NCBI GenBank assembly: GCA_030584085.1
Contig: CP129490.1
Coordinates: 1,893,511 to 1,957,510, forward strand
DNA length: 64,000 nucleotides
Direction: 5' to 3'
Origin: Melioribacteraceae bacterium
Lineage (GTDB): Bacteria > Bacteroidota > Ignavibacteria > Ignavibacteriales > Melioribacteraceae
Shown here: in pieces, positions 41,487-52,282 of the stretch
How positions within the stretch are numbered: the stretch's first letter is position 1
Layout of the letters: each line of letters begins with the position of its first letter
Notes under the pieces: model-generated
Seen by the model: only the letters and a program-made list of their open reading frames with translations
What the model was told of the DNA's origin: nothing
Databases searched by the model: none
Position numbers and translations under genes: made by a program

Positions 41487-41622
41487 TCCCCCTCCGATGC
41501 TTATTAAGAAAATTGTTTGTTAAAAGACTAAGCAAGATACAAGTTTTATGATTTTTCTGCTAATTTTTATGAATCTATTCTACACATATTTGCATCTTAC
41601 CCAAGAAAAAATGTGAGAGAAA

Positions 41623-41862
41623 ATGAATCAACCAAAAGTTATTTTATTCAGCACACCGACTTGCAGTTTTTGTAATACCGCTAAGCGGTATTTCAGAGAA
41701 AATAAAATTCGTTTTACAGACGTCGATGTTTCCAAGGACCAAAAAGCTGCATTAGATATGCAGAGAAAAACCGGACAAACCGGTGTACCGGTTATATTAA
41801 TTAATAACAGACCAATAGTGGGTTTTGACAAAAATAAAATTGATAAATTATTAAATCTATAA
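41623..41862 (+). CDS. Glutaredoxin-like protein
   Basis: A 79-residue thioredoxin-fold redox protein with active site TPTCSFCNTAKRYF and the conserved cis-proline segment TGVPVILINNRPIVGFD. The CxxC spacing and size fit the NrdH/glutaredoxin-3 group, which reduces ribonucleotide reductase or other disulfide enzymes. GAGAG precedes the ATG. It is 13 bases upstream of groES and probably cotranscribed with it, suggesting stress-related expression (inference). Confidence 0.9.
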   Translation: MNQPKVILFSTPTCSFCNTAKRYFRENKIRFTDVDVSKDQKAALDMQRKTGQTGVPVILINNRPIVGFDKNKIDKLLNL

Positions 41863-41875
41863 AGGAGAATAAGTA

Positions 41876-42145
41876 ATGAAAGTAAAACCAATGGATGACC
41901 GCGTTCTAATTGAACCAATGCAGCAAGAATCTAAAACAGCAAGCGGTATAATCATTCCCGATTCAGCCAAAGAGAAACCGATAATGGGTACTGTTGTTGC
42001 TGTCGGAACCGATGAAGATCTGCAAGAGAAAATCAAAGTCGGTGATAAAGTACTTTATGCAAAATATGGCGGAGAAGAAATAACTGTCGAGGGAAAAGAT
42101 TATAAGATAATTCAAAGAGCTGATATTTTAGCAGTAGTAGAATAA
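41876..42145 (+). CDS. groES: Co-chaperonin GroES (Cpn10)
   Basis: An 89-residue GroES: KPMDDRVLIEPMQQESKTASGIIIPDSAKEKP (with the mobile loop), GTVVAVGT, IKVGDKVLYAKYGGEEITVEGKDYKIIQRADILAV. Slightly short but complete. SD AAGGAG lies seven bases before the ATG. No groEL follows; a terminator stands ten bases downstream. Either groEL is elsewhere in the genome or this is an extra co-chaperonin. No CIRCE element is visible upstream. Confidence 0.95.
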   Translation: MKVKPMDDRVLIEPMQQESKTASGIIIPDSAKEKPIMGTVVAVGTDEDLQEKIKVGDKVLYAKYGGEEITVEGKDYKIIQRADILAVVE

Positions 42146-42153
42146 GTGTTTGT

Positions 42154-42183
42154 AAAGCGACGATCCTTCGTCGCTTTTTTTTA
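42154..42183 (+). terminator. Terminator after groES
   Basis: Stem AAAGCGACGA (42154-42163) and TCGTCGCTTT (42168-42177) with loop TCCT, running into a T tract to 42182. Confidence 0.92.
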
Positions 42184-42243
42184 TCTCCCTTATTTAGAAA
42201 TTTCCGAATATACAACATAAGCGAGCAATGATACTTGCTATAC

Positions 42244-42273
42244 AAAAAAAGGCTGCTATATTGAGCAGCCTTT
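42244..42273 (-). terminator. Bidirectional terminator after microprotein 1
   Basis: Stem AAAGGCTGCT (42248-42257) and AGCAGCCTTT (42264-42273). T-rich runs lie on both sides, so it can end the minus-strand transcript of the secreted-protein/microprotein unit and back up the groES terminator. Confidence 0.88.
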
Positions 42274-42300
42274 TTATTTATTTATCGATTACAATTATTT

Positions 42301-42390
42301 CTAAAAGAATGCTGATTGACAGGCAATTAATGAAAGTGTAATCACCACTGCCCAAGCAAACATGTAAACTGTAAGTGCAAGCTTTTTCAT
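42301..42390 (-). CDS. 29-residue lipopeptide-like microprotein 1
   Basis: Short ORF (ATG at 42390, TAG at 42301). The peptide begins MKKLALT, has a hydrophobic core and ends LSLIACQSAFF. An AGGA ribosome site lies eight bases upstream. LIAC fits a lipobox; cleavage there would leave the six-residue lipopeptide CQSAFF. Otherwise it is a one-helix membrane peptide. It has a paralog at 46306-46395 with 24 of 29 residues identical; at 11 of the identical residues the codons differ synonymously, which indicates selection on the peptide. The last six codons plus stop are identical. Both copies lie between a giant T9SS cargo gene and a terminator. Family not recognised; function unknown. Confidence 0.72.
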   Translation of the reverse strand: MKKLALTVYMFAWAVVITLSLIACQSAFF

Positions 42391-42437
42391 TTTAGGTTCC
42401 TCTCTCTTCTTTCAAAATTTTTATTCTTAGTTAGTTT

Positions 42438-42457
42438 GTGCGGCTCTCAGGCCGCAC
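42438..42457 (-). other. Conserved RNA hairpin between cargo gene 1 and microprotein 1
   Basis: Minus strand GTGCGGCCTGAGAGCCGCAC forms a 7-bp stem with loop CTGAGA. The equivalent hairpin at 46440-46459 has outer pair C-G instead of G-C, a G-U wobble replacing the innermost C-G, and loop CTGAGT. No T tract follows, so it is not a standard terminator; it may stabilise the 3' end of the cargo mRNA or be a processing site. Confidence 0.6.
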
Positions 42458-42484
42458 TTAAATTTTTACAAAAAATAAATAGTA

Positions 42485-45400
42485 TTACTTTAGAAGAATC
42501 ATCTTCTTGGCTTGCATATATTCTCCTGCACTTATCCTGTATATATACGTTCCGCTCGATACCTTGCTTCCGTAATTGTTATCACCTTTCCATTCTACAC
42601 TGTGTCTGCCTGCTTTTACTTCTTGGCTTAGCAATGTTCTTACTTCTTGTCCCAACATATCATATATCTTTATTGTTACATGATTTGCTTCAGGCAATGA
42701 GTAATTTATCGTTGTCGTTGGATTGAATGGATTAGGATAGTTCTGATCTATATTGTATGTCAACGGTAACTCTTCAGTATCCTCTACGCTAGTTACACTG
42801 CCTATCTTGAAATTACCCGCTGATGAATATTCCGATGTTGATCCGTCTGTCTTACTTCTTACTCTCCAGAAGTATTCTCCATCTGATAATTCAGTTACCT
42901 TTGCTTTTAATTGCTCAAGGTTTTCATACTTCGTTGCATTGCTAAAGTCTGAACTGTTAGATACTTCAACTTCGTACGAGAGGGCTGATTGTGATTGTGC
43001 GGGTAAAAACCAGGATAACGTCGGACTATTTGAACTGATCGTTACTCCTCTGGCTGGTGAGCCTACCATCGGGACTACTGCGTTGGCTCCCGGATCTACT
43101 GTGAACTTCCAAGTACTTGATGGATTTTCCCAGGTTACTCCATTATCATAAGATAACTCTACATACCACCAATATGTAGCTCCCTCAGTTAATGGTGAGT
43201 TAACACTCGCATTTGTTGTAGTTGTTGTCACAGTTTCCACGTTTGCGTTGAATAACTCTGTATTGCTATATGTTACTCTAAAATGTGTAACTCCTAACAA
43301 CGAACCGGTTACATACCAGTAAAATGATGGACTCTTTGTTAAGACTACCGTATTATTTGCAGGATTTGTTTGTACTATACTTGCATTGTTGCCGGCAATT
43401 GTAAAGCTACCCTCTGCGAAATCAGAATATGGACCAGCAGGATGATCATGCGCTGCTACTGCCCAATAATAGGTTTCTCCATATTCTAAGGGGCTGGTAA
43501 AGGTGTAGAAGGTCTCATTCATATCTGCTGTTACATAGATTGAATCATTTGCTAATACTTGTGTCAACCATTCTGCCGGCGTCTTATCTTTCTTTGACCA
43601 AACAACTTTGTAATGGAACCAACCTAACGTTGAACCTTCAAAGTACCAAGAAAGTGTCGGGGTGTTTGTATAAACTGTTGGGTTACCCACAGGCCAGTTG
43701 GCTACCGGATAACTGTTAAGTCCTCCGGTTACACTAAATTCTGCAGTTGATGAATAGACAGTAGGATATCCTGTCTTCGAAGCTTTGATTCTCCAATAGT
43801 AGTACTCTCCCGGTAATAATCCGCTGCCTTGTACATACAAGTCAGTTGTAGGTCCAAATGTAAAATCTATTGTTCCGAAAGTGTTATCTGTGCTAACTTC
43901 AACTTCATAATTCACATCAACATTCATTGCACCTATCCACCAATAAAATGTTGGTGCTGTTGTGTATATCTCTAATCCACCGGTTGGATATGACGGATTA
44001 GCTGCCGTCGGTACTAAACCCGGGGCATCATATGTCGTAAATTCTGCAACTGATGAATAATTGTATTCATTTCCGTAACGTGTTCTTACTTGCCAATAAT
44101 ATGTTGTTGACGGATTTAAATCAGTTCCGATATATACATATGTATTTGTTCCGGCGTAAACTTCAGTTACTCCGTTTACTAAAGAATCTCCGACTACTGT
44201 ATTATCTGTTGAATACATTACAGTAAAATGAGCTCCCGGCTCCCACTGCATTGTATACCAGTAGAATGTCGGGTCTAAATAATATATCGGTCCGCCTATC
44301 GGCCAACTTGGATATGCTTTTACTGCTCCGCCTTTGGTTGTGAATGAAAAAACTGAAGAATATTTGACAACTCGATCATCGAAATCGAATACATTTGATG
44401 CGCTGCCATCATCATAGTATGCACAAACTCTCCAATAAAATTTTGAACCACCGTCTAACGAGTTAACTGCTCGGTATAAATCGTTGATATTATCAAACCA
44501 TAGAACTGGATTTGCTCCTTGTGCAGCAGTAATTTCAAAACTTGCCCATTGTACATAATCTGGTGCAAGTGGTTGCTCAATTATTTGCAAGAAGAACTTA
44601 AGTGAACCTTGAGCTTGGTTAATACTCCATGTAAAAGTTGCAGGATCATATAAATAAAGTTCTATATTATCGCCTGGATTCCACAAGCTAATATTAATAT
44701 TTGCTACAGTTGTAAAATACCAAGGTTGTGAGGCATAATCATTACCACCTACTTCAGCAATTACCCTCCAATAATACTTTGTATTATTATTGAGAGGAAT
44801 TTCAGGATGGAAATAACCATTAAATTTATAGTTATCAATTCCAGCCCCTACGCTATGTTCTAAAACGAGATCACCTACAAAATCCGTAGAAGTAGCAATT
44901 TGAATTCTATAACCGGTAGCAACACCATCATCCACCCATTCAAGAGTTGGTTTAATAGATACTCCGGTAATTGAATTTACAGGAGAAACTAGTTCAGGAA
45001 CTACATCAAATGTCCAAGGTCCATTTGATGACGAAACTGGAGTATTGTCTAAAGGTGTATTGCTATCATCAATAGTCACATCCCATGTATAAGTACCATA
45101 ATTAAGATTTGCACCAAAAGTATAAGGACTTGTTTCAGGTGAATTCTGAGCAAAACCATTATTTCCTGTAACATCTAAAGTATATGTTACATTCGATACA
45201 GGTGAAGCAGTACTCCATGTTAATGTCGGAGTTCTGTCTGAAGAACTGAATCCATCAGCCGGCGTGTCCAATGTGAGATCTGGAAAACCGGTTTTGAATT
45301 GAGCATCTACTGAAGTTTCTTGTTGTGCCGGATCGGAATCATCATCGGTCACAACTTCCCACCAATAATTTGTATTGAAATCTAACTGACCGCCGGGAAC

Positions 45401-45955
45401 CGGATCACCACTATTCAGAACTCCACTCCAGACGAGTGATGTTAATAATGCATCATCATAGATATTCACTGTGTATGTGTAAGGAATTGTTCCACCTGTA
45501 GCCGGATCCCAGGTTAATGTTGGTGTCAATGTCTGGTCAGCTAATCCATCTGGAGCTAAATTTGAAGCTGCAGTCAGCTGATCAATCGTTGAGAACAAAT
45601 ATTCGCCGTAAATTGCATCAGTTTGATATTGTAAATAAGTTGTATATCCATAACCGTCTATTTGAACTGCCCATGAGTAGTCTGAGCTATAATTCAAGTT
45701 ACCAGCGAACGGGACTGAATTTCCATTTAGATTATCATAAACGAAATCAAGCGTTTGGATTAAAGATGGAGTTCCGCTCGGATCTTCTATAATCAATATG
45801 TCATAAGGAGTTCCGTCGGCAAGTGTTGGGTCTAATCCGGCTGGTATCTCAATTGTACCACTTATTTGATTATTGAGTCCTGTTGGTGATTGACCAACTA
45901 TTAAGCTAGTAAAGACAAGCAAACTAGCTAATAAGGTTAGTAGTTTTAGTTTCAT
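42485..45955 (-). CDS. Giant T9SS-secreted protein 1, tandem FnIII/Ig-like repeats
   Basis: A 1156-residue exported surface protein. Signal peptide ~1-21 (MKLKLLTLLASLLVF, ending IVGQ). Residues ~25-1055 are about ten Ig/FnIII-like beta-sandwiches, each with a recurring pattern: TPTLTW or SPSFYWY at the start and YYWRVRxxxxxxxxSSxxxFxT at the end. The C-terminal ~90 residues are a T9SS type-A sorting domain: YNIDQNYPNPFNPTTTINYSL, IYDMLGQEVRTLL, GTYIYRI, ending KKMILLK. It should be exported by T9SS and anchored or released at the surface. No enzymatic domain seen. SD GAGGG sits in the loop of a small hairpin. Confidence 0.88.
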   Translation of the reverse strand: MKLKLLTLLASLLVFTSLIVGQSPTGLNNQISGTIEIPAGLDPTLADGTPYDILIIEDPSGTPSLIQTLDFVYDNLNGNSVPFAGNLNYSSDYSWAVQIDGYGYTTYLQYQTDAIYGEYLFSTIDQLTAASNLAPDGLADQTLTPTLTWDPATGGTIPYTYTVNIYDDALLTSLVWSGVLNSGDPVPGGQLDFNTNYWWEVVTDDDSDPAQQETSVDAQFKTGFPDLTLDTPADGFSSSDRTPTLTWSTASPVSNVTYTLDVTGNNGFAQNSPETSPYTFGANLNYGTYTWDVTIDDSNTPLDNTPVSSSNGPWTFDVVPELVSPVNSITGVSIKPTLEWVDDGVATGYRIQIATSTDFVGDLVLEHSVGAGIDNYKFNGYFHPEIPLNNNTKYYWRVIAEVGGNDYASQPWYFTTVANINISLWNPGDNIELYLYDPATFTWSINQAQGSLKFFLQIIEQPLAPDYVQWASFEITAAQGANPVLWFDNINDLYRAVNSLDGGSKFYWRVCAYYDDGSASNVFDFDDRVVKYSSVFSFTTKGGAVKAYPSWPIGGPIYYLDPTFYWYTMQWEPGAHFTVMYSTDNTVVGDSLVNGVTEVYAGTNTYVYIGTDLNPSTTYYWQVRTRYGNEYNYSSVAEFTTYDAPGLVPTAANPSYPTGGLEIYTTAPTFYWWIGAMNVDVNYEVEVSTDNTFGTIDFTFGPTTDLYVQGSGLLPGEYYYWRIKASKTGYPTVYSSTAEFSVTGGLNSYPVANWPVGNPTVYTNTPTLSWYFEGSTLGWFHYKVVWSKKDKTPAEWLTQVLANDSIYVTADMNETFYTFTSPLEYGETYYWAVAAHDHPAGPYSDFAEGSFTIAGNNASIVQTNPANNTVVLTKSPSFYWYVTGSLLGVTHFRVTYSNTELFNANVETVTTTTTNASVNSPLTEGATYWWYVELSYDNGVTWENPSSTWKFTVDPGANAVVPMVGSPARGVTISSNSPTLSWFLPAQSQSALSYEVEVSNSSDFSNATKYENLEQLKAKVTELSDGEYFWRVRSKTDGSTSEYSSAGNFKIGSVTSVEDTEELPLTYNIDQNYPNPFNPTTTINYSLPEANHVTIKIYDMLGQEVRTLLSQEVKAGRHSVEWKGDNNYGSKVSSGTYIYRISAGEYMQAKKMILLK

Positions 45956-46092
45956 ATAAGCACCCTCATGCTTTGTGAATAAAATAAACTTTGGCTGGGT
46001 TTAATTTTATTTTAATCAATCTACTTTCCCTCAAAAGTAGATTTAAGTTCGTTTTCAATAAAAGAGGTAAAACTTTTTTGGCTGGTAATTTC
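45956..46092 (-). other. Structured leader of cargo gene 1
   Basis: Part of a 350-base gap between cargo gene 1 and microprotein 2. The minus-strand leader, about 130 bases, has two hairpins with the same hexaloop TGAGGG: CTACTTT/AAAGTAG (46021-46040) and AAGCA/TGCTT (45958-45973). The loop of the second is the ribosome-binding site. CCAGCCA occurs twice, at 45992-45998 and at 46079-46085 near the predicted transcript start. Leader 2 (50488-50660) shares these elements with different stem sequences. Confidence 0.6.
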
Positions 46093-46121
46093 AATATATC
46101 ATGTATTTTTTAATCTGTCAA
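46093..46121 (-). promoter_or_regulatory. Sigma-70-like promoter of cargo gene 1
   Basis: Minus strand TTGACA (46116-46121), exactly 17 bases, TATATT (46093-46098). The transcript would begin about 46086, placing a CCAGCCA element at its very 5' end. Confidence 0.75.
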
Positions 46122-46248
46122 GTAAAAACTTCGAGTATTTGTCTTTTTTCCAGATATACTAAAATGCAGCCATTTTAACTAGTCAAATAATGCGAAAATA
46201 GTTAAAGACATGCAACACCAGAAATTAAAAATAAGACATTATGTGATA

Positions 46249-46282
46249 TAAAACAAAGCCCGCCATTTTGAATTGACGGGCT
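46249..46282 (-). terminator. Terminator after microprotein 2
   Basis: On the minus strand AGCCCGTCA (46282-46274) pairs with TGGCGGGCT (46265-46257) with one mismatch, followed by TTTGTTTT. It ends the second cargo/microprotein unit, about 130 bases before the promoter of the first. Confidence 0.78.
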
Positions 46283-46305
46283 ATTATTCACAAAGCATTC
46301 AGGTG

Positions 46306-46395
46306 CTAAAAGAATGCTGATTGACAAGCGATGAGTGAGAGGGTGATCACCATCGCAAGAAAAAACATATATAAGGTTAATGCCAGCTTTCTCAT
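46306..46395 (-). CDS. 29-residue lipopeptide-like microprotein 2
   Basis: Short ORF (ATG at 46395, TAG at 46306), paralog of 42301-42390. It begins MRKLALT, carries the core YMFFLAMVITLSLIAC and ends QSAFF. The substitutions are all compatible with a signal peptide or membrane helix: K2R, V8L, A12F, W13L and V15M. AGGAAG lies about seven bases before the ATG. The LIAC lipobox-like site and the terminal QSAFF are unchanged. It follows cargo gene 2 after the same kind of hairpin and precedes a terminator, matching the organisation of unit 1. Function unknown; candidates are a lipopeptide signal, a small T9SS accessory or an envelope peptide. Confidence 0.72.
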   Translation of the reverse strand: MRKLALTLYMFFLAMVITLSLIACQSAFF

Positions 46396-46439
46396 TTTTC
46401 GTCTTCCTATATTTTCGTTAGTAATTTTTTAGTTAAATT

Positions 46440-46459
46440 CTGCGGCACTCAGACCGCAG
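46440..46459 (-). other. Conserved RNA hairpin between cargo gene 2 and microprotein 2
   Basis: Minus strand CTGCGGTCTGAGTGCCGCAG: 6-bp stem extended by a possible T-G wobble, loop CTGAGT. Counterpart of the hairpin at 42438-42457 with a compensatory swap of the outermost pair. No T tract follows it. Confidence 0.6.
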
Positions 46460-46482
46460 TTAAATCGGACTAAATGAATTGC

Positions 46483-49400
46483 TTACTTTAATAGGACCAT
46501 TTTCTTTGCTTGCATAAATTCACCGGCAACAATTTGATAAATGTATGTACCGCTAGATATTTTTTGTCCGTAGTTATTATCTCCTATCCAATTAATCGAA
46601 TGCACACCGGCTTTCATATCTTGGCTTAATAGAGTTTTCACTTCTTGACCGAGTGTGTTATATATTTTTACTGTTACATAAGTAGCTTTAGGTAAAGAGT
46701 ATGAAATTGTCGTAGCCGGGTTAAACGGATTCGGATAATTTTGATCAAGTGAATATGTAACCGGAACAATATCTTCTTCGACTGAGGTAACGCTATTATC
46801 GGTACTGAATTTTCCCGTGGTTGAATAATTAGAATATTCTCCATCCGCAGATTTTGTTCTAACTCTCCAGAAGTATTCAGAATTTTCTGAAAGATTATTT
46901 ACTTGCTGATATTTTTGTGATGACTCAAATACTTCGCTATTTTGAAAATGGCCTGAGGTTGAGAACTCAATTTCATACGTAACATCTTCATTTCCTTGAA
47001 TAGGATTGATCCAAGATAGTGTGACATTAGCTTGATTTAAAGTCACGTTATGAGGGCCACCAACTATTGGCTGTGCAATTGTTGAGCCATTATCGATCGT
47101 AAATGTTTCTATGGTTGACCAAGTACTATAAACCGATCCACCATAATATGCTCTAACTTTCCAGCTGTAAGTTGCACCGGCTGAAAGATTATTTACTGTA
47201 AAGAATGTCTTATCTGTTGTTACATAAACCCATGATGATAAGCCGCCATTATCAGAATAAGCCAGCTGATAACTTACGATTCCAAGAGTTGAACCCGTAA
47301 AATACCATCTAAAGGTTGGTGAGTCAGTATAAATTGTTTCACCACCGATAGGCATGGTTAATTCAACATTACCCGAACCTGGTCCACCTGCTAATACAAA
47401 TGATTCGGTAGATGAGAAAGTAGATAAATTATTGCTTGCATCTTTTGCAGCTACAGCCCAGTAATATTGTTCCCCATAACTTAAGTCAGCAGTAACTTTC
47501 CACAAAGTCGTATAAATATTGTTGATTACAAACTGACCATCAGTTGCATCCGGTGTACCAAGATTTGTAGTTCCCCACGAACCCGTTAAATCACTTGTTG
47601 AATATTTAACTACGTAACCGGTTATTCCTAATGATGAACCATCTAAATACCAAGAAAAAGTCGGTCTATTAGTATAAACAGTTTCTTCACCAATTGGGAA
47701 ATTAAGGACTGGTGTTGAACTTGTGACACCTCCGGCTATCTTAAATGTACCATAATCTGACCAATCACTATAAGAAATACCATTAAATGAACGGACTCTC
47801 CACTTGTATGTTTCGCCTGGCGTAAGCCCGGTTATTTTCTTATAAATTGATTGGCTGGTTAAAGTGTTTTCATTACCTTGAGGGCCGAATTGGATTTCGA
47901 AAGTAAGACCAAAAGAACTTCCTTCCAGATACCAATAAAATGTCGGTGAAACCGTATAGATTTCTAAATCATCTGTTGGATAAGAAGGAGTTGGAACCAG
48001 CAACGTACCGCTGCCATTTGTAATGAAGCTTTCAGCATCAGAATATTCCCCAAAAGTGCCATTATATTCTGAACGGACTTGCCAATAATATTGAGTACCA
48101 GGTAAAAGTGTCGGTAATTTTAAATAAAGGTTACTAGTTAGTGGTAATGTAATCCCACCAATTAATCTTCCGTTTCCATCAAGATCACCGGTAGTTGAAG
48201 CGACATAAGTGACTTCATATTTAACACCTGGTGCATATTGATCTAAATACCAATAAAGTGTAGGAGTGTTTGTATAAGCCAATGCTTCCCCAATTGGCCA
48301 AGAAGGTGTCGCAACTACAGTTGTTCCACCAGAAGTTGTAAATGAAGTTACATCTGAAAAGGAAATTACTTGATTACTGCTATTTAATACCACAACTCTC
48401 CAATAATACTTGCTGCCACCGCAAAGTGAAAATGTGCGATATGTGTTAGTTGTTATTTCCGTAAGTGTTGTTGTAGACCAATCCAATGCATCTGGTTGCG
48501 TAGCTTTTTTTACGATCTGTGGTTTGAATTTCATACTACCGATTGCCTGTCCAATTGACCAAGTAAACATTGTAGAATTAGTATAGATAACACTACCTTC
48601 AGCAGGATGACCAATAGATACATTTACTTCAGGTGCAGTATTAAACTCCCATGCTTTTGAGTGCTTCCAGACTCCATCTATTCTTGCAGCAACTTTCCAA
48701 TAATATTTATTACCGTTGACTAATGGGAAAGTATCTTCAAGTTCACTCATTACTTTAGTAATATTATTACCTTGGTTTACATAATAAATTACGTTTGGAT
48801 TAGTAGAAGGACTTGAAAAATCATTGGTAGTTGATACAAACAATGCATAACTGTTTGTGTTAGCCGCTTCAGGCCAAGTGAAAGTTGGTTCAATTGAAAC
48901 ACCAGTTAATCCATTTAGGGGAGTTGTAAATCCTGTCCAATTTGTAAAAGTGTCATCAATCCACCATGGAGAATAATTCACATTATCTGTAATAACTGCA
49001 CCTTCGCCAAGTTGATTTGATGAATGTGTTGGACCTCTTTGGTCATCCCAATAATTATTTCTTGCATCAATAGTATTGGATGTAAGATTATTTATTCCCC
49101 ACTTAGTTAAAAATTTACAATTATGAATCGCTATATCTGAACCGCCGTCAATTCTTATTGCATAATAGCTAGGGTTATAATTGAATGTAAACCCAGTAAT
49201 AGTAACATTACTTGCATTTATAACTATTGCAGGTGAACTATAATTAATTACTGCACCGTCTTTACCAATTACAGTAATGCCATCGTTACTTATGCTGATC
49301 GCATTGTGAGTTCCACCTTCTACAACAATTACATCACCTTCTGAAGCTTCATTAATTGCCACTTGTAATGAAGGATAGTTTACACCAGTAGTTTCATTCG

Positions 49401-50487
49401 AAATTCCAGTTGGGAATGAAATACTTAATCCCCAAAGTGCTTCGCCTGTAATCTCATTATTTTCTCCGGATGTCAAATAATTTTCCCATCCACCAGTAGA
49501 AAGTTGAACTGAGGTTATGAAATTTGCAGCGCCTTCAATTTGAGTTAGGTAATTCGCTCTATCAATTTCATTAAGTGCTAAAATCGCATAAGCTGTTTCT
49601 TGTAAAGCTTCATTAGCGTCATCAGGAATTACATAGTCACTATTCCAAGCAAAGCCACCATAATTAATTTGATAGCTGACTAAGATATCTGCCAAATCGT
49701 TTATACTACTTGCTGCTGCATGTTCACCAGCGGTTGGATCATAATCTTCCCCCACAAAAGCGAGACCGTACAATGCACCAGCAAGACCAATTACATCATA
49801 ATATGCATTCCCATCGAGTTCGTCAATTTCAGCTTTTACACCATCAATCCATTCGATAGTGCTAGCACCGCACATTGCGGCACCAACTAACCCGAGCCCA
49901 ATATCCCAAGCTGCCATGTTAGCTTGACCACCACTTCTATATGTTCTGATATAATTAACATAGTCTTCAGTATTATAGAAGTTACCATCTCTTTCGTAGC
50001 TGCCATTAACAAGCTTATCATAAAAATTTGCTTTGACGTAATCTGTATATGTACTTACTCCAAAGATTCTATCCAATTCATCTGCTAGATATCCATCGCT
50101 TGGAGAGAAAACTGTTTTTGTTAACAATAAATCACCAGTTTTTTGCAGTGCATCGAGGAATGTTTGCTCACCTGTTTGTTGATATGCTTGTGCAAGACCC
50201 ATTCCAATTGGACCAATCGTATTAGTCGGATTATTGCCTTCAAGAGGCCAACCCCAAGTACCATCGGAATTTTGCATTTCGACAAGTCGATTACCTCCAG
50301 TAATGAAGACCTCATTAATCGACTGAATAATTTCCATATAGCTAACAACTTTGTTCGTGTTTGTTGTAGAGTTATAGGATTCATTCGATCCGTCAAACGG
50401 CACTACAGGAGTTGTTTGAGCATTAAGCCCAACAAGACTTAAGAAAAAGAGTAGTAAAAACATACGTAGTAGTAGTTTGAGTTTCAT
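46483..50487 (-). CDS. Giant T9SS-secreted protein 2: toroid, beta-helix and FnIII repeats
   Basis: A 1334-residue exported surface protein. Signal peptide ~1-23 (ending GLNAQ). Residues ~40-365 form an alpha-alpha toroid like prenyltransferase/terpene-cyclase or pectate-lyase-type barrels, with repeats of the GGF/GGW type (NSDGTWGWPL, YGGFAWNSDY, STGGWENYL). Residues ~375-500 are a right-handed parallel beta-helix (GDVIVVEGGTHNAISIS, VTITGFTFNYN, DARNNYWDDQRGP). Several Ig/FnIII-like repeats follow (~510-1235, as in protein 1), then a T9SS type-A sorting domain (YSLDQNYPNPFNPATTISYSL to KKMVLLK). Carbohydrate binding or cleavage is possible but no active site is assigned. Confidence 0.85.
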   Translation of the reverse strand: MKLKLLLRMFLLLFFLSLVGLNAQTTPVVPFDGSNESYNSTTNTNKVVSYMEIIQSINEVFITGGNRLVEMQNSDGTWGWPLEGNNPTNTIGPIGMGLAQAYQQTGEQTFLDALQKTGDLLLTKTVFSPSDGYLADELDRIFGVSTYTDYVKANFYDKLVNGSYERDGNFYNTEDYVNYIRTYRSGGQANMAAWDIGLGLVGAAMCGASTIEWIDGVKAEIDELDGNAYYDVIGLAGALYGLAFVGEDYDPTAGEHAAASSINDLADILVSYQINYGGFAWNSDYVIPDDANEALQETAYAILALNEIDRANYLTQIEGAANFITSVQLSTGGWENYLTSGENNEITGEALWGLSISFPTGISNETTGVNYPSLQVAINEASEGDVIVVEGGTHNAISISNDGITVIGKDGAVINYSSPAIVINASNVTITGFTFNYNPSYYAIRIDGGSDIAIHNCKFLTKWGINNLTSNTIDARNNYWDDQRGPTHSSNQLGEGAVITDNVNYSPWWIDDTFTNWTGFTTPLNGLTGVSIEPTFTWPEAANTNSYALFVSTTNDFSSPSTNPNVIYYVNQGNNITKVMSELEDTFPLVNGNKYYWKVAARIDGVWKHSKAWEFNTAPEVNVSIGHPAEGSVIYTNSTMFTWSIGQAIGSMKFKPQIVKKATQPDALDWSTTTLTEITTNTYRTFSLCGGSKYYWRVVVLNSSNQVISFSDVTSFTTSGGTTVVATPSWPIGEALAYTNTPTLYWYLDQYAPGVKYEVTYVASTTGDLDGNGRLIGGITLPLTSNLYLKLPTLLPGTQYYWQVRSEYNGTFGEYSDAESFITNGSGTLLVPTPSYPTDDLEIYTVSPTFYWYLEGSSFGLTFEIQFGPQGNENTLTSQSIYKKITGLTPGETYKWRVRSFNGISYSDWSDYGTFKIAGGVTSSTPVLNFPIGEETVYTNRPTFSWYLDGSSLGITGYVVKYSTSDLTGSWGTTNLGTPDATDGQFVINNIYTTLWKVTADLSYGEQYYWAVAAKDASNNLSTFSSTESFVLAGGPGSGNVELTMPIGGETIYTDSPTFRWYFTGSTLGIVSYQLAYSDNGGLSSWVYVTTDKTFFTVNNLSAGATYSWKVRAYYGGSVYSTWSTIETFTIDNGSTIAQPIVGGPHNVTLNQANVTLSWINPIQGNEDVTYEIEFSTSGHFQNSEVFESSQKYQQVNNLSENSEYFWRVRTKSADGEYSNYSTTGKFSTDNSVTSVEEDIVPVTYSLDQNYPNPFNPATTISYSLPKATYVTVKIYNTLGQEVKTLLSQDMKAGVHSINWIGDNNYGQKISSGTYIYQIVAGEFMQAKKMVLLK

Positions 50488-50660
50488 AAAAGCACCCTTT
50501 ATGTTTAGTTAAAAAATAGTGGCTGGATTTTTTAACTTAGTACTGTTGCTTCCCTCAAAGCAATTACATCCTTGCGACTATGCGTGTTGGCTGGTTCTCT
50601 CGTTACTTCAGAACAAAACATATTTTGGCTGGTTGTTACTTGCTTTGGCTGATTCGATTT
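50488..50660 (-). other. Structured leader of cargo gene 2
   Basis: First part of a 409-base gap. On the minus strand a hairpin TTGCTT-TGAGGG-AAGCAA (50546-50563) has the same hexaloop as leader 1 but an unrelated stem. CCAGCCA occurs at 50520-50526, 50588-50594 and 50626-50632, with a variant at 50646-50652. GGGTGCTT just before the ATG matches leader 1. A possible -10 TAAAAT stands immediately upstream of the outermost CAGCCA, but no good -35 is seen. Confidence 0.55.
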
Positions 50661-50896
50661 TACTTTTTTAAAGAAGTTTAAGTTTACTGAGAAATACTAA
50701 TAGAACATATGAGTTTTAAAGAATAAAATCAAGTCTATCAAAAGATAATGCATCTTATTTTTGATATATTTATTTAATGAGAATAAGATTCTTATTTAAT
50801 ATTTGCTTTCTTATATTGAATTTATGCTAGTAATGTCACATATTGACCACAATTTTTATTTCATCATTTACTCATTAAAATAGTTGAGAAGAAATT
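50661..50896. other. Intergenic region upstream of the NSS transporter
   Basis: AT-rich, no ORF worth calling. It contains an inverted repeat AATAAGA-T-TCTTATT at 50782-50796, which could be an operator for the transporter gene or chance in AT-rich DNA. TTGACC at about 50843 may be a -35 element, but the matching -10 is poor. GAGAAG precedes the transporter ATG. Confidence 0.35.
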
Positions 50897-52282
50897 ATGT
50901 CCACACCTTCACCTTCCCGCGAACAATGGGGTTCAAAACTTGGATTCATATTAGCAGCTGCCGGTTCAGCAATCGGTTTAGGAAACATTTGGAAATTCCC
51001 TTACGTTGTTGGTGAAAACGGTGGTTCCGCATTTATAATTATTTACCTTCTTTGCACTGCCGTAATCGGTCTGCCGGTATTAGTCGGTGAAATATTAATC
51101 GGCCGCACAACACAACGAAATCCAGTTGGTGCATTCCGTGCGTTAAGTGGTTCAAAGTTCTGGGCCGGTGTTGGCGGAATGGGCGTGATCGCAGGTTTTC
51201 TCATTTTATCATTTTATGCTGTTATCGCAGGCTGGTCAGTTGGATATATTTATCAATCAATTTCCGGTGATTTTTTTCAGTATGCTGATCCAACAAAAGC
51301 AGCAGAACATTTTGTTGATCTAACACAAAACGTTACATGGATAATGAGTTATTTTGCTTTTTTTATGGTCATAACAATGTTGGTTGTTATTTCAGGTGTT
51401 CAAAAAGGTATTGAACGAGGAAGTAAAATAATGATGCCGTTGCTTTTCATTTTACTCATATTTGTCATGATACGTGGAATTACTCTTGAAGGAGCTGAAG
51501 CAGGTATAAATTTTTTACTTGATCCCGATTGGTCTGAAGTAAACGGACAGACTTTTTTAATCGCACTCGGACAAGCTTTCTTTACTTTAAGTATGGGAAT
51601 GGGTGCAATGCTCACCTATGGTAGTTACATGTCAAAAAAAGATAGCGTTCCATCCTCTGCATTTCAGATCGTAATTCTTGATACTTCGATTGCATTAATT
51701 GCTGGCATCGCAATTTTCACCTCAGTATTTGCGGTTGGTTTAGATGCAAATGCCGGACCAGGTTTAATCTTCCATACATTGCCTGTCGTTTTTACAAAGA
51801 TGCCAGGAGGAGAATTTTTTGGTCCAATTTTTTTCATACTATTGACTATAGCAGCCTTGACTTCAGCCATGTCTTTACTTGAAGTTATAACTGCATATTT
51901 TGTTGATGAAAAAAAATGGAGCCGGAAAAAAGCTGTAATTGTTTTTGGCGGTGTTACATTTTTACTTGGGATTCCATCTGCCCTATCGTTCAATATACTT
52001 TCTGATTTTTCAGTGTTTGGTTTGAACTTTTTTGATTTAGTTGATTATATAACTTCCAATATAATGCTTCCTTTAGGCGGATTTTTAATCGCAGTGTTTA
52101 TCGCTTACGTTTGGAAATTTGATAAAGCACTTGTTGAATTAAAAAATGGTGCGGAAAATTTATTTAATAAATATCCATTACTGATTACATTGTGGCAGAT
52201 ATTTGTCAAATATTTTGCGCCTGTACTTATTTTCTTAGTCCTATTACATTCAATGGGAATATTAGAAGCACTTGGTATGTAG
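50897..52282 (+). CDS. Neurotransmitter:sodium symporter (NSS/SNF) family transporter
   Basis: A 461-residue Na+-coupled transporter with about 11-12 helices, LeuT fold. Helix 1 has the family signature GSAIGLGNIWKFPYVVGENGGSAF, which forms the Na+ and amino-acid site. TLSMGMGAMLTYGSYMSKK lies in the helix 6 region and AALTSAMSLLEVITAYFVDE in helix 8. Bacterial members take up amino acids such as tryptophan, leucine, tyrosine or alanine; the substrate here is not predictable. Followed 33 bases later by a second Na+ symporter, so the pair may serve amino-acid uptake in a peptide-using organism. Confidence 0.93.
   Translation: MSTPSPSREQWGSKLGFILAAAGSAIGLGNIWKFPYVVGENGGSAFIIIYLLCTAVIGLPVLVGEILIGRTTQRNPVGAFRALSGSKFWAGVGGMGVIAGFLILSFYAVIAGWSVGYIYQSISGDFFQYADPTKAAEHFVDLTQNVTWIMSYFAFFMVITMLVVISGVQKGIERGSKIMMPLLFILLIFVMIRGITLEGAEAGINFLLDPDWSEVNGQTFLIALGQAFFTLSMGMGAMLTYGSYMSKKDSVPSSAFQIVILDTSIALIAGIAIFTSVFAVGLDANAGPGLIFHTLPVVFTKMPGGEFFGPIFFILLTIAALTSAMSLLEVITAYFVDEKKWSRKKAVIVFGGVTFLLGIPSALSFNILSDFSVFGLNFFDLVDYITSNIMLPLGGFLIAVFIAYVWKFDKALVELKNGAENLFNKYPLLITLWQIFVKYFAPVLIFLVLLHSMGILEALGM

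Follow-up and report, generated by a model that had tools for sequence, protein, structure and literature searches.

A family of 28-30-residue peptides, under selection as protein, is encoded by short open reading frames (ORFs) that lie directly behind a subset of the genes for type A cargo of the type IX secretion system (T9SS). Two members are found in the stretch of DNA analysed here, a 64,000-nucleotide part of the genome of a Melioribacteraceae bacterium (GenBank assembly GCA_030584085.1, contig CP129490.1, positions 1,893,511 to 1,957,510 of the forward strand), hereafter called the window. Each of them follows a gene for a giant cargo protein that ends in a type A sorting domain (C-terminal domain, CTD). 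The microprotein family is real, apparently undescribed and restricted to one lineage, and its coupling is to part of the type A cargo only. The two window loci comprise the following genes and domains, with coordinates counted from the first letter of the window:

42301..42390, minus strand: microprotein 1, 29 residues, MKKLALTVYMFAWAVVITLSLIACQSAFF
42485..45955, minus strand: cargo gene 1, 1156 residues, Ig_Rha78A_N-type repeats and a C-terminal T9SS type A sorting domain (domain scans)
42497..42739, minus strand: sorting domain of cargo 1, residues 1073-1153, long-loop subtype
46306..46395, minus strand: microprotein 2, 29 residues, MRKLALTLYMFFLAMVITLSLIACQSAFF
46483..50487, minus strand: cargo gene 2, 1334 residues, Ig_Rha78A_N and fn3 repeats and a T9SS type A sorting domain (domain scans)
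46495..46737, minus strand: sorting domain of cargo 2, residues 1251-1331, long-loop subtype

An earlier note on this DNA (the original prediction) had described the ORF pair as identical at 24 of 29 residues and had read selection on the protein from its synonymous codons; coordinates and translations agree with ours, and the codons bear the reading out. Different synonymous codons are used at 11 of the 24 common residues, and the Nei-Gojobori estimates for the pair are 1.34 for synonymous (dS) and 0.16 for non-synonymous (dN) divergence. The homologs and the dN/dS comparison that the note had proposed as further checks point the same way. Microprotein 1 differs from the copy in G001, a genome of the same genus, by 12 synonymous and 3 non-synonymous changes, and the peptides of G001 and G002, again within this genus, differ by 6 synonymous and no non-synonymous ones, so that non-synonymous drift is low. 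Over 187 pairs of family members with at least 70% identity, which are not independent of each other, the pooled proportions of synonymous and non-synonymous differences (pS and pN) are 0.62 and 0.12, respectively. Both ORFs are real genes that are selected as protein, and a chance origin of the pair is excluded because the peptide is conserved across the family.

Relatives of the pair are widespread in the bacterial family to which the window belongs. A first homolog search found members in 58 genomes, including the window's own. With a second profile, 49 of the 79 genomes of the family were matched at E 0.1, and 45 of the 79, from 20 of 35 genera, were accepted: 41 clear cases, three that are weaker but stand behind a CTD gene (G098, G005 and G030) and one that was found through its cargo (G099). 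Two genomes of the sister family, G034 and G042, also contain members. No clear member was detected outside these two families in evenly drawn samples of the class (391 genomes) and the phylum (395), with up to 20 first-look candidates scored per genome. Candidates were dropped as false by sequence and position (L109 in G021, L110 in G036, L021, L131 and L027), as decayed copies (the L035 third copy in G007, L077 in G059 and L193 in G101) or as weak partial matches (G064, G068, G075 and G080). The window genome has exactly two members, a further weak partial match (E 1.27) being taken as chance, and G010 likewise has two. The highest copy number is reached in G011, in which six cargo-peptide units stand in a row. 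G002 has three units at the site that holds only two in the window genome; the third (L196), with a Cys-less peptide, lies between the other two and a transporter gene like that at 50897-52282 of the window. One scan of viral contigs returned no relative and plasmids gave none at E 1, and on these grounds the idea that the peptide is cargo of a mobile element or phage is rejected.

The link with T9SS cargo genes, which the original prediction had drawn from the two window loci, extends to the entire family. For 67 of the 69 mapped members the surroundings are readable, the other two lying at contig ends, and 66 of these 67 start 6-129 nt behind a type A sorting-domain gene. The CTD model used here is based on 28 CTDs of the window genome that have no peptide behind them and is hence independent of the coupled ones. 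The lone exception, in G022, stands 117 nt ahead of a CTD gene of a different type, with Sortilin-Vps10 repeats. Extra copies are also found behind CTD genes, namely the Cys-less copy of G005, the second copy of G002 and two copies of G025. In the window, the distance from the cargo stop to the peptide start is 94 nt for microprotein 1 and 87 nt for microprotein 2, and the claim that each ORF follows a type A cargo gene is upheld by matches of the last ~80 residues of both cargos to TIGR04183 (E 1.7e-11 for cargo 1 and 4.1e-8 for cargo 2; both pass). PF18962 is passed by cargo 1 (35.9 bits); cargo 2 is 1.6 bits short of it in the protein scan and above the cut-off (31 bits) in the genome scan.

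The coupling is selective. Within the window genome, a peptide follows only 2 of 86 distinct CTD ORFs, with up to 260 nt of downstream DNA read for each. A profile of Ig-like repeats plus CTD gives the two coupled cargos 292 and 277 bits, and the next best score among the matches listed is 162. Ig_Rha78A_N is above cut-off in 12 of the 15 coupled cargos scanned, the others being L095 (G086), L090 (G042) and L079 (G083); in the alignment, these three and L078 (G083), which lies outside the 15 scanned, show no Ig domain ahead of the CTD. The L095 cargo (L095:3-2690), with two cohesin stretches and a dockerin-like one that scores below cut-off, is possibly a surface scaffold. A long-loop CTD pattern, W-x-G...G...SG-x-Y, which was defined after seeing the data, occurs in 64 of 67 coupled CTDs (one of them has a decayed peptide next to it; of the three without the pattern, one is long-loop by eye) versus 4 of the 86 CTDs of the window genome, two of these four being the coupled pair. 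Two long-loop CTD genes of the window genome, L210 (G000:C1 near 78976) and L128, have no peptide behind them. When the 86 CTDs were ranked with a CTD-only profile made from coupled cargos of other genera, the window cargos came first, with 153.5 and 144.0 bits. Most of the coupled cargos are giants with multiple Ig domains, and their long-loop sorting domain is unusual. Moreover, the distances among peptides correlate with those among cargos (Mantel r 0.56, 0 of 2000 permutations, n = 65), which shows that peptide and cargo travel together, although shared ancestry is still in the data and the test cannot separate this from common descent.

The anatomy of the peptide was read from an alignment of 70 intact members on the position of their cysteine, comprising the 69 with mapped loci and one from L192 (G005); a second, identical G002 copy was left out. 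Members are 28-30 residues long, and 2 of 69 start with GTG or TTG. The most conserved positions are Lys3, Ile17, Leu19, Ala20, Leu21, Ala23, Cys24 and His/Gln25, together with positions 28 and 29, which hold bulky and mostly aromatic residues. The best conserved block takes in part of the hydrophobic stretch. The tail after the Cys position always has five or six residues and is conserved within clades. Two members of G025 (L082), real by position and kept outside the counts of 69 and 70, have hydrophilic N-terminal extensions of 44 and ~52 residues, and both lie behind CTD genes.

This layout raises the possibility that the product is a very short lipoprotein, which signal peptidase II (SPase II) would cut before Cys24 to leave a lipidated six- or seven-residue peptide working in the outer membrane, or a leftover leader in the inner one. 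We consider this a serious possibility while leaning somewhat against it. The original prediction had taken LIAC as a lipobox, and the lipobox-like ending itself stands: a cysteine is present in 67 of the 70 members, 66 of these 67 fit a PS00013-type pattern (Cys at 15-35, Lys or Arg among the first seven residues), the tail length is fixed and LspA is encoded in the window genome. A lipoprotein as the default is an overstatement, however, since the strict lipobox [LVI][ASTVI][GAS]C is found in 24 of the 70 only and Tyr occupies position -2 in 40. In addition, the lipid-attachment cysteine that is invariant in SPase II substrates is replaced by Ser or Ala in three otherwise intact copies (G012, G002 and G005) behind CTD cargo, and the hydrophilic extensions of the two G025 copies also fit a lipoprotein poorly. 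This alternative concerns the form of the peptide and is compatible with an accessory role.

A further clue to the form comes from the part ahead of the cysteine. In their first 24 residues, microproteins 1 and 2 are identical to the G002 peptide at 22 and 20 positions, respectively. A first control with the leader of one neighbouring lipoprotein, which is identical at 6 of 20 positions between the window genome (G000) and G001 at 78% identity overall, gave values for 2 of 16 genomes and was widened to the neighbourhood. Among 20 reciprocal-best pairs with signal-like N-termini between the window genome and G002, leader identity ranges from 25 to 96% (median 61, overall 77), and the seven lowest leaders, most of which were judged by eye to be cleavable, reach 25-48% (61-77% overall); the signal-peptide picker behind these values is a crude heuristic, and integral membrane proteins are mixed into the set. 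The high identity of the peptides, set against the low identity of disposable leaders, hints, at most, that their conserved hydrophobic part may function as a membrane helix and not just as a leader to be discarded. A helical-face test revealed no conservation pattern.

The original prediction had also likened the sequence after the cysteine to lipoprotein-derived pheromones, with CQSAFF as the released peptide. The conservation of the short tail within clades would agree with such a signal, but the conserved block inside the hydrophobic stretch, the tight tie to a subset of cargo genes, the presence of up to six similar copies per genome and the three intact Cys-less copies make it highly improbable. 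The idea is weakened further because enterococcal pheromones derive from the part before the lipobox cysteine, not after it.

We favour the view that giant type A cargo has a dedicated accessory in this peptide, either a single-pass membrane peptide or a lipoprotein, which helps without being essential, and give this, as judged from sequence, close to an even chance of being right. With a positive N-terminus, one hydrophobic helix and a tail of five or six residues after Cys24, the peptide would sit in the inner membrane with its tail in the periplasm, either lipidated at Cys24 or left as a free peptide with a single membrane pass. Its synthesis would follow directly on that of the cargo, from the same message, and it might hold, protect or pass on the cargo at a periplasmic step of T9SS export or anchoring. 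Its clients would be giant cargos, mostly Ig-stalk proteins of the long-loop sorting-domain subtype, which it would assist. The other reading offered in the original prediction, in which the cargo needs a small membrane peptide, fits best, but "needed" is too strong, because three genomes (G028, G029 and G016) carry closely similar cargo with no peptide behind it.

Several findings weigh against a dedicated accessory. These three genomes are among 20 peptide-less relatives that were searched for the Ig-plus-CTD cargo, a search in which G099 turned out to have a peptide behind its cargo and the cargo surroundings of G084 were unreadable. Decayed copies of the peptide occur as well, one behind a CTD cargo in G007 and others in G059 and G101. 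The uncoupled long-loop CTD of L210 scores nearly as high with the CTD-only profile as those of the window cargos (142.8 bits, third of 86). One cargo's own leader is also 81% identical, and the median for the 20 leaders is 61%, so that the contrast between peptide and leaders is suggestive only. Finally, PorV is reported to be the one shuttle that recognises all type A CTDs (PMC12618676), so that a dedicated partner for cargo of this type is unexpected.

Rather than the cargo, the peptide might act on a shared target, such as a protease, a sensor or the T9SS motor, and thereby provide a feedback signal of giant-cargo synthesis. A single hydrophobic stretch with a specifically conserved segment would suit this role, for which transcriptional coupling alone would do, and one member does stand ahead of its cargo. 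The link with a CTD subtype is explained more simply by contact with the cargo, and we consider a shared target somewhat unlikely. Still less likely, in our estimate, is a bolder version of the accessory role, in which a type A CTD subtype would have its own membrane micro-partner, whose Cys-plus-aromatic tail would contact T9SS components through a lipid anchor or a disulfide bond, in a new cargo-specific mode of sorting or anchoring. A disulfide bond between peptide and cargo is unlikely as a general rule: among 55 coupled cargo frames of more than 600 residues, 15 have no cysteine and 40 have some, and one has a cysteine within its last 90 residues. A redox role for Cys24 is conceivable by analogy, because SprF, whose periplasmic C-terminal tail contains a conserved Cys-Xaa-Cys, is disulfide-bonded to GldK (PMC12635249).

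The sequences around the window genes contain the following putative signals:

42246..42275, strand not assigned: terminator-like hairpin 3' of microprotein 1 (terminator scan)
42398..42403, minus strand: putative ribosome-binding site AGAGGA of microprotein 1 (read from the sequence)
42438..42457, minus strand: hairpin in the gap between cargo 1 and microprotein 1 (folding; no T run after it on the minus strand)
46093..46121, minus strand: promoter-like site upstream of cargo gene 1 (11/12, extended -10)
46257..46282, minus strand: terminator-like hairpin 3' of microprotein 2 (terminator scan)
46403..46408, minus strand: putative ribosome-binding site AGGAAG of microprotein 2 (read from the sequence)
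46440..46459, minus strand: hairpin in the gap between cargo 2 and microprotein 2 (folding)

Each ORF is thus preceded by a purine-rich putative ribosome site, as judged by reading. The original prediction had further placed a conserved hairpin before each peptide and a terminator behind it. Both gap hairpins do fold (z -2.0 and -1.6), but the hairpin is not constant across the family: among 67 loci, one of them decayed, stems with at least five G-C pairs occur in 7 of 29 gaps of at least 50 nt and in none of 38 shorter gaps, and four-G-C stems add 8 more of the 29, in a scan that reported only 5-bp stems. The hairpin is hence rejected as a defining part, being present in some long-gap members. 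The terminators hold up better, given that a terminator-like hairpin lies 3' of both window microproteins and of the peptide in 55 of 67 loci; that at 42246..42275 was called on the plus strand, and on the minus strand its stem itself ends in a T run. Two plus-strand ORFs, a glutaredoxin-like one at 41623-41862 and a GroES-like one at 41876-42145 (from their translations), run toward this terminator. A role as leader peptide or attenuator of the next gene is rejected, since 55 of the 67 loci have a terminator-like site after the peptide, which is coupled to the preceding gene, the exception being G022:C2, where the peptide comes before the cargo. Given the promoter-like site upstream of cargo gene 1, each cargo may form a separate transcription unit with its peptide; such sites number 35 in the region as compared with a mean of 33.2 in shuffles, which makes them weak evidence. 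No Rfam family reached its gathering score at 41500-51000 of the window.

The window genome, a single contig of 3.74 Mb, encodes T9SS machinery, including the SprA translocon (SprA_N, 164.5 bits) and the PorU sortase (989 bits). A second PorU-like match, below cut-off, lies in a 1781-residue frame at 1113561 of this genome. PF18962 has 129 matches in it, 124 of them above cut-off, a very large T9SS cargo repertoire for a genome of this size.

Database searches connected the peptide with no known protein family. None of six members was above cut-off in Pfam or NCBIfam, PHROGs gave nothing below E 0.16, and no chain in the PDB was matched by the peptide profile at E 1. Below threshold, one of the six peptides (P0002) matched Lysis_col of Pfam (11.6 bits, E 0.25, cut-off 27; none for the others), one of the six matched the LptM model NF047847 (11.2 bits, E 0.31, cut-off 27.7), and P0002 and one G011 peptide matched an Rz-like spanin (E 0.33 and 0.43); we read all of these as chance matches among hydrophobic 30-mers. 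Two papers on Melioribacter roseus (PMC3534657 and PMC5492636), in the parts available, describe Por sorting domains on carbohydrate enzymes in one and none in the other, and neither part mentions such a peptide. Literature searches yielded nothing relevant on the combination of peptide and cargo, nor on T9SS sorting in this bacterial branch. The family thus provides a clear case of a conserved gene of ~30 codons without a family match above cut-off among the six members scanned.

Comparable arrangements exist in other systems. Peptides of the KdpF and CydX type, of ~30 residues and with a single membrane pass, are encoded together with a large partner, but their partners are membrane complexes, not secreted proteins. 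Colicin lysis lipoproteins share the layout, in that their small ORF follows the gene of a large protein that is exported, and their mature part is much longer than that of the peptide. A corresponding role, in which the peptide would loosen the envelope and help the giants to leave the cell or reach its surface, could draw on this layout and on the matches to Lysis_col and the Rz-like spanin; E values above 0.1 are at chance level for hydrophobic 30-mers, the cargo already has its own export machine and sorting domain, and we regard such a role as improbable. LptM (YifL), which is not known to be encoded behind its client, offers a parallel of another kind. It is a very small lipobox protein that assists one large envelope protein, LptD, and differs from the peptide in that mature LptM was modelled as residues 20-67 (PMC10567701).

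The closest parallel within the T9SS itself may be found among the shuttles of the PorP/SprF type. Type B cargo is often genetically linked to its own PorP/SprF-like shuttle (PMC12618676, PMC9143113), so that in both cases a partner gene often stands beside a T9SS cargo gene and serves a subset of the cargo. SprF, however, crosses the outer membrane and acts on type B CTDs, whereas the partner described here is a 29-residue peptide beside type A cargo, and the family, with its 28-30 residues and one hydrophobic stretch, lacks the makings of an outer-membrane-spanning protein. A cargo-specific helper is predicted for type A cargo, mostly for one CTD subtype. Type A CTDs are the most common T9SS signal, and the picture of one common route for them would be incomplete if the bolder version of the accessory role is true. 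The conserved membrane peptide behind their genes in many members of the bacterial family suggests a tiny helper dedicated to these giants, much as type B cargo often has its own shuttle.

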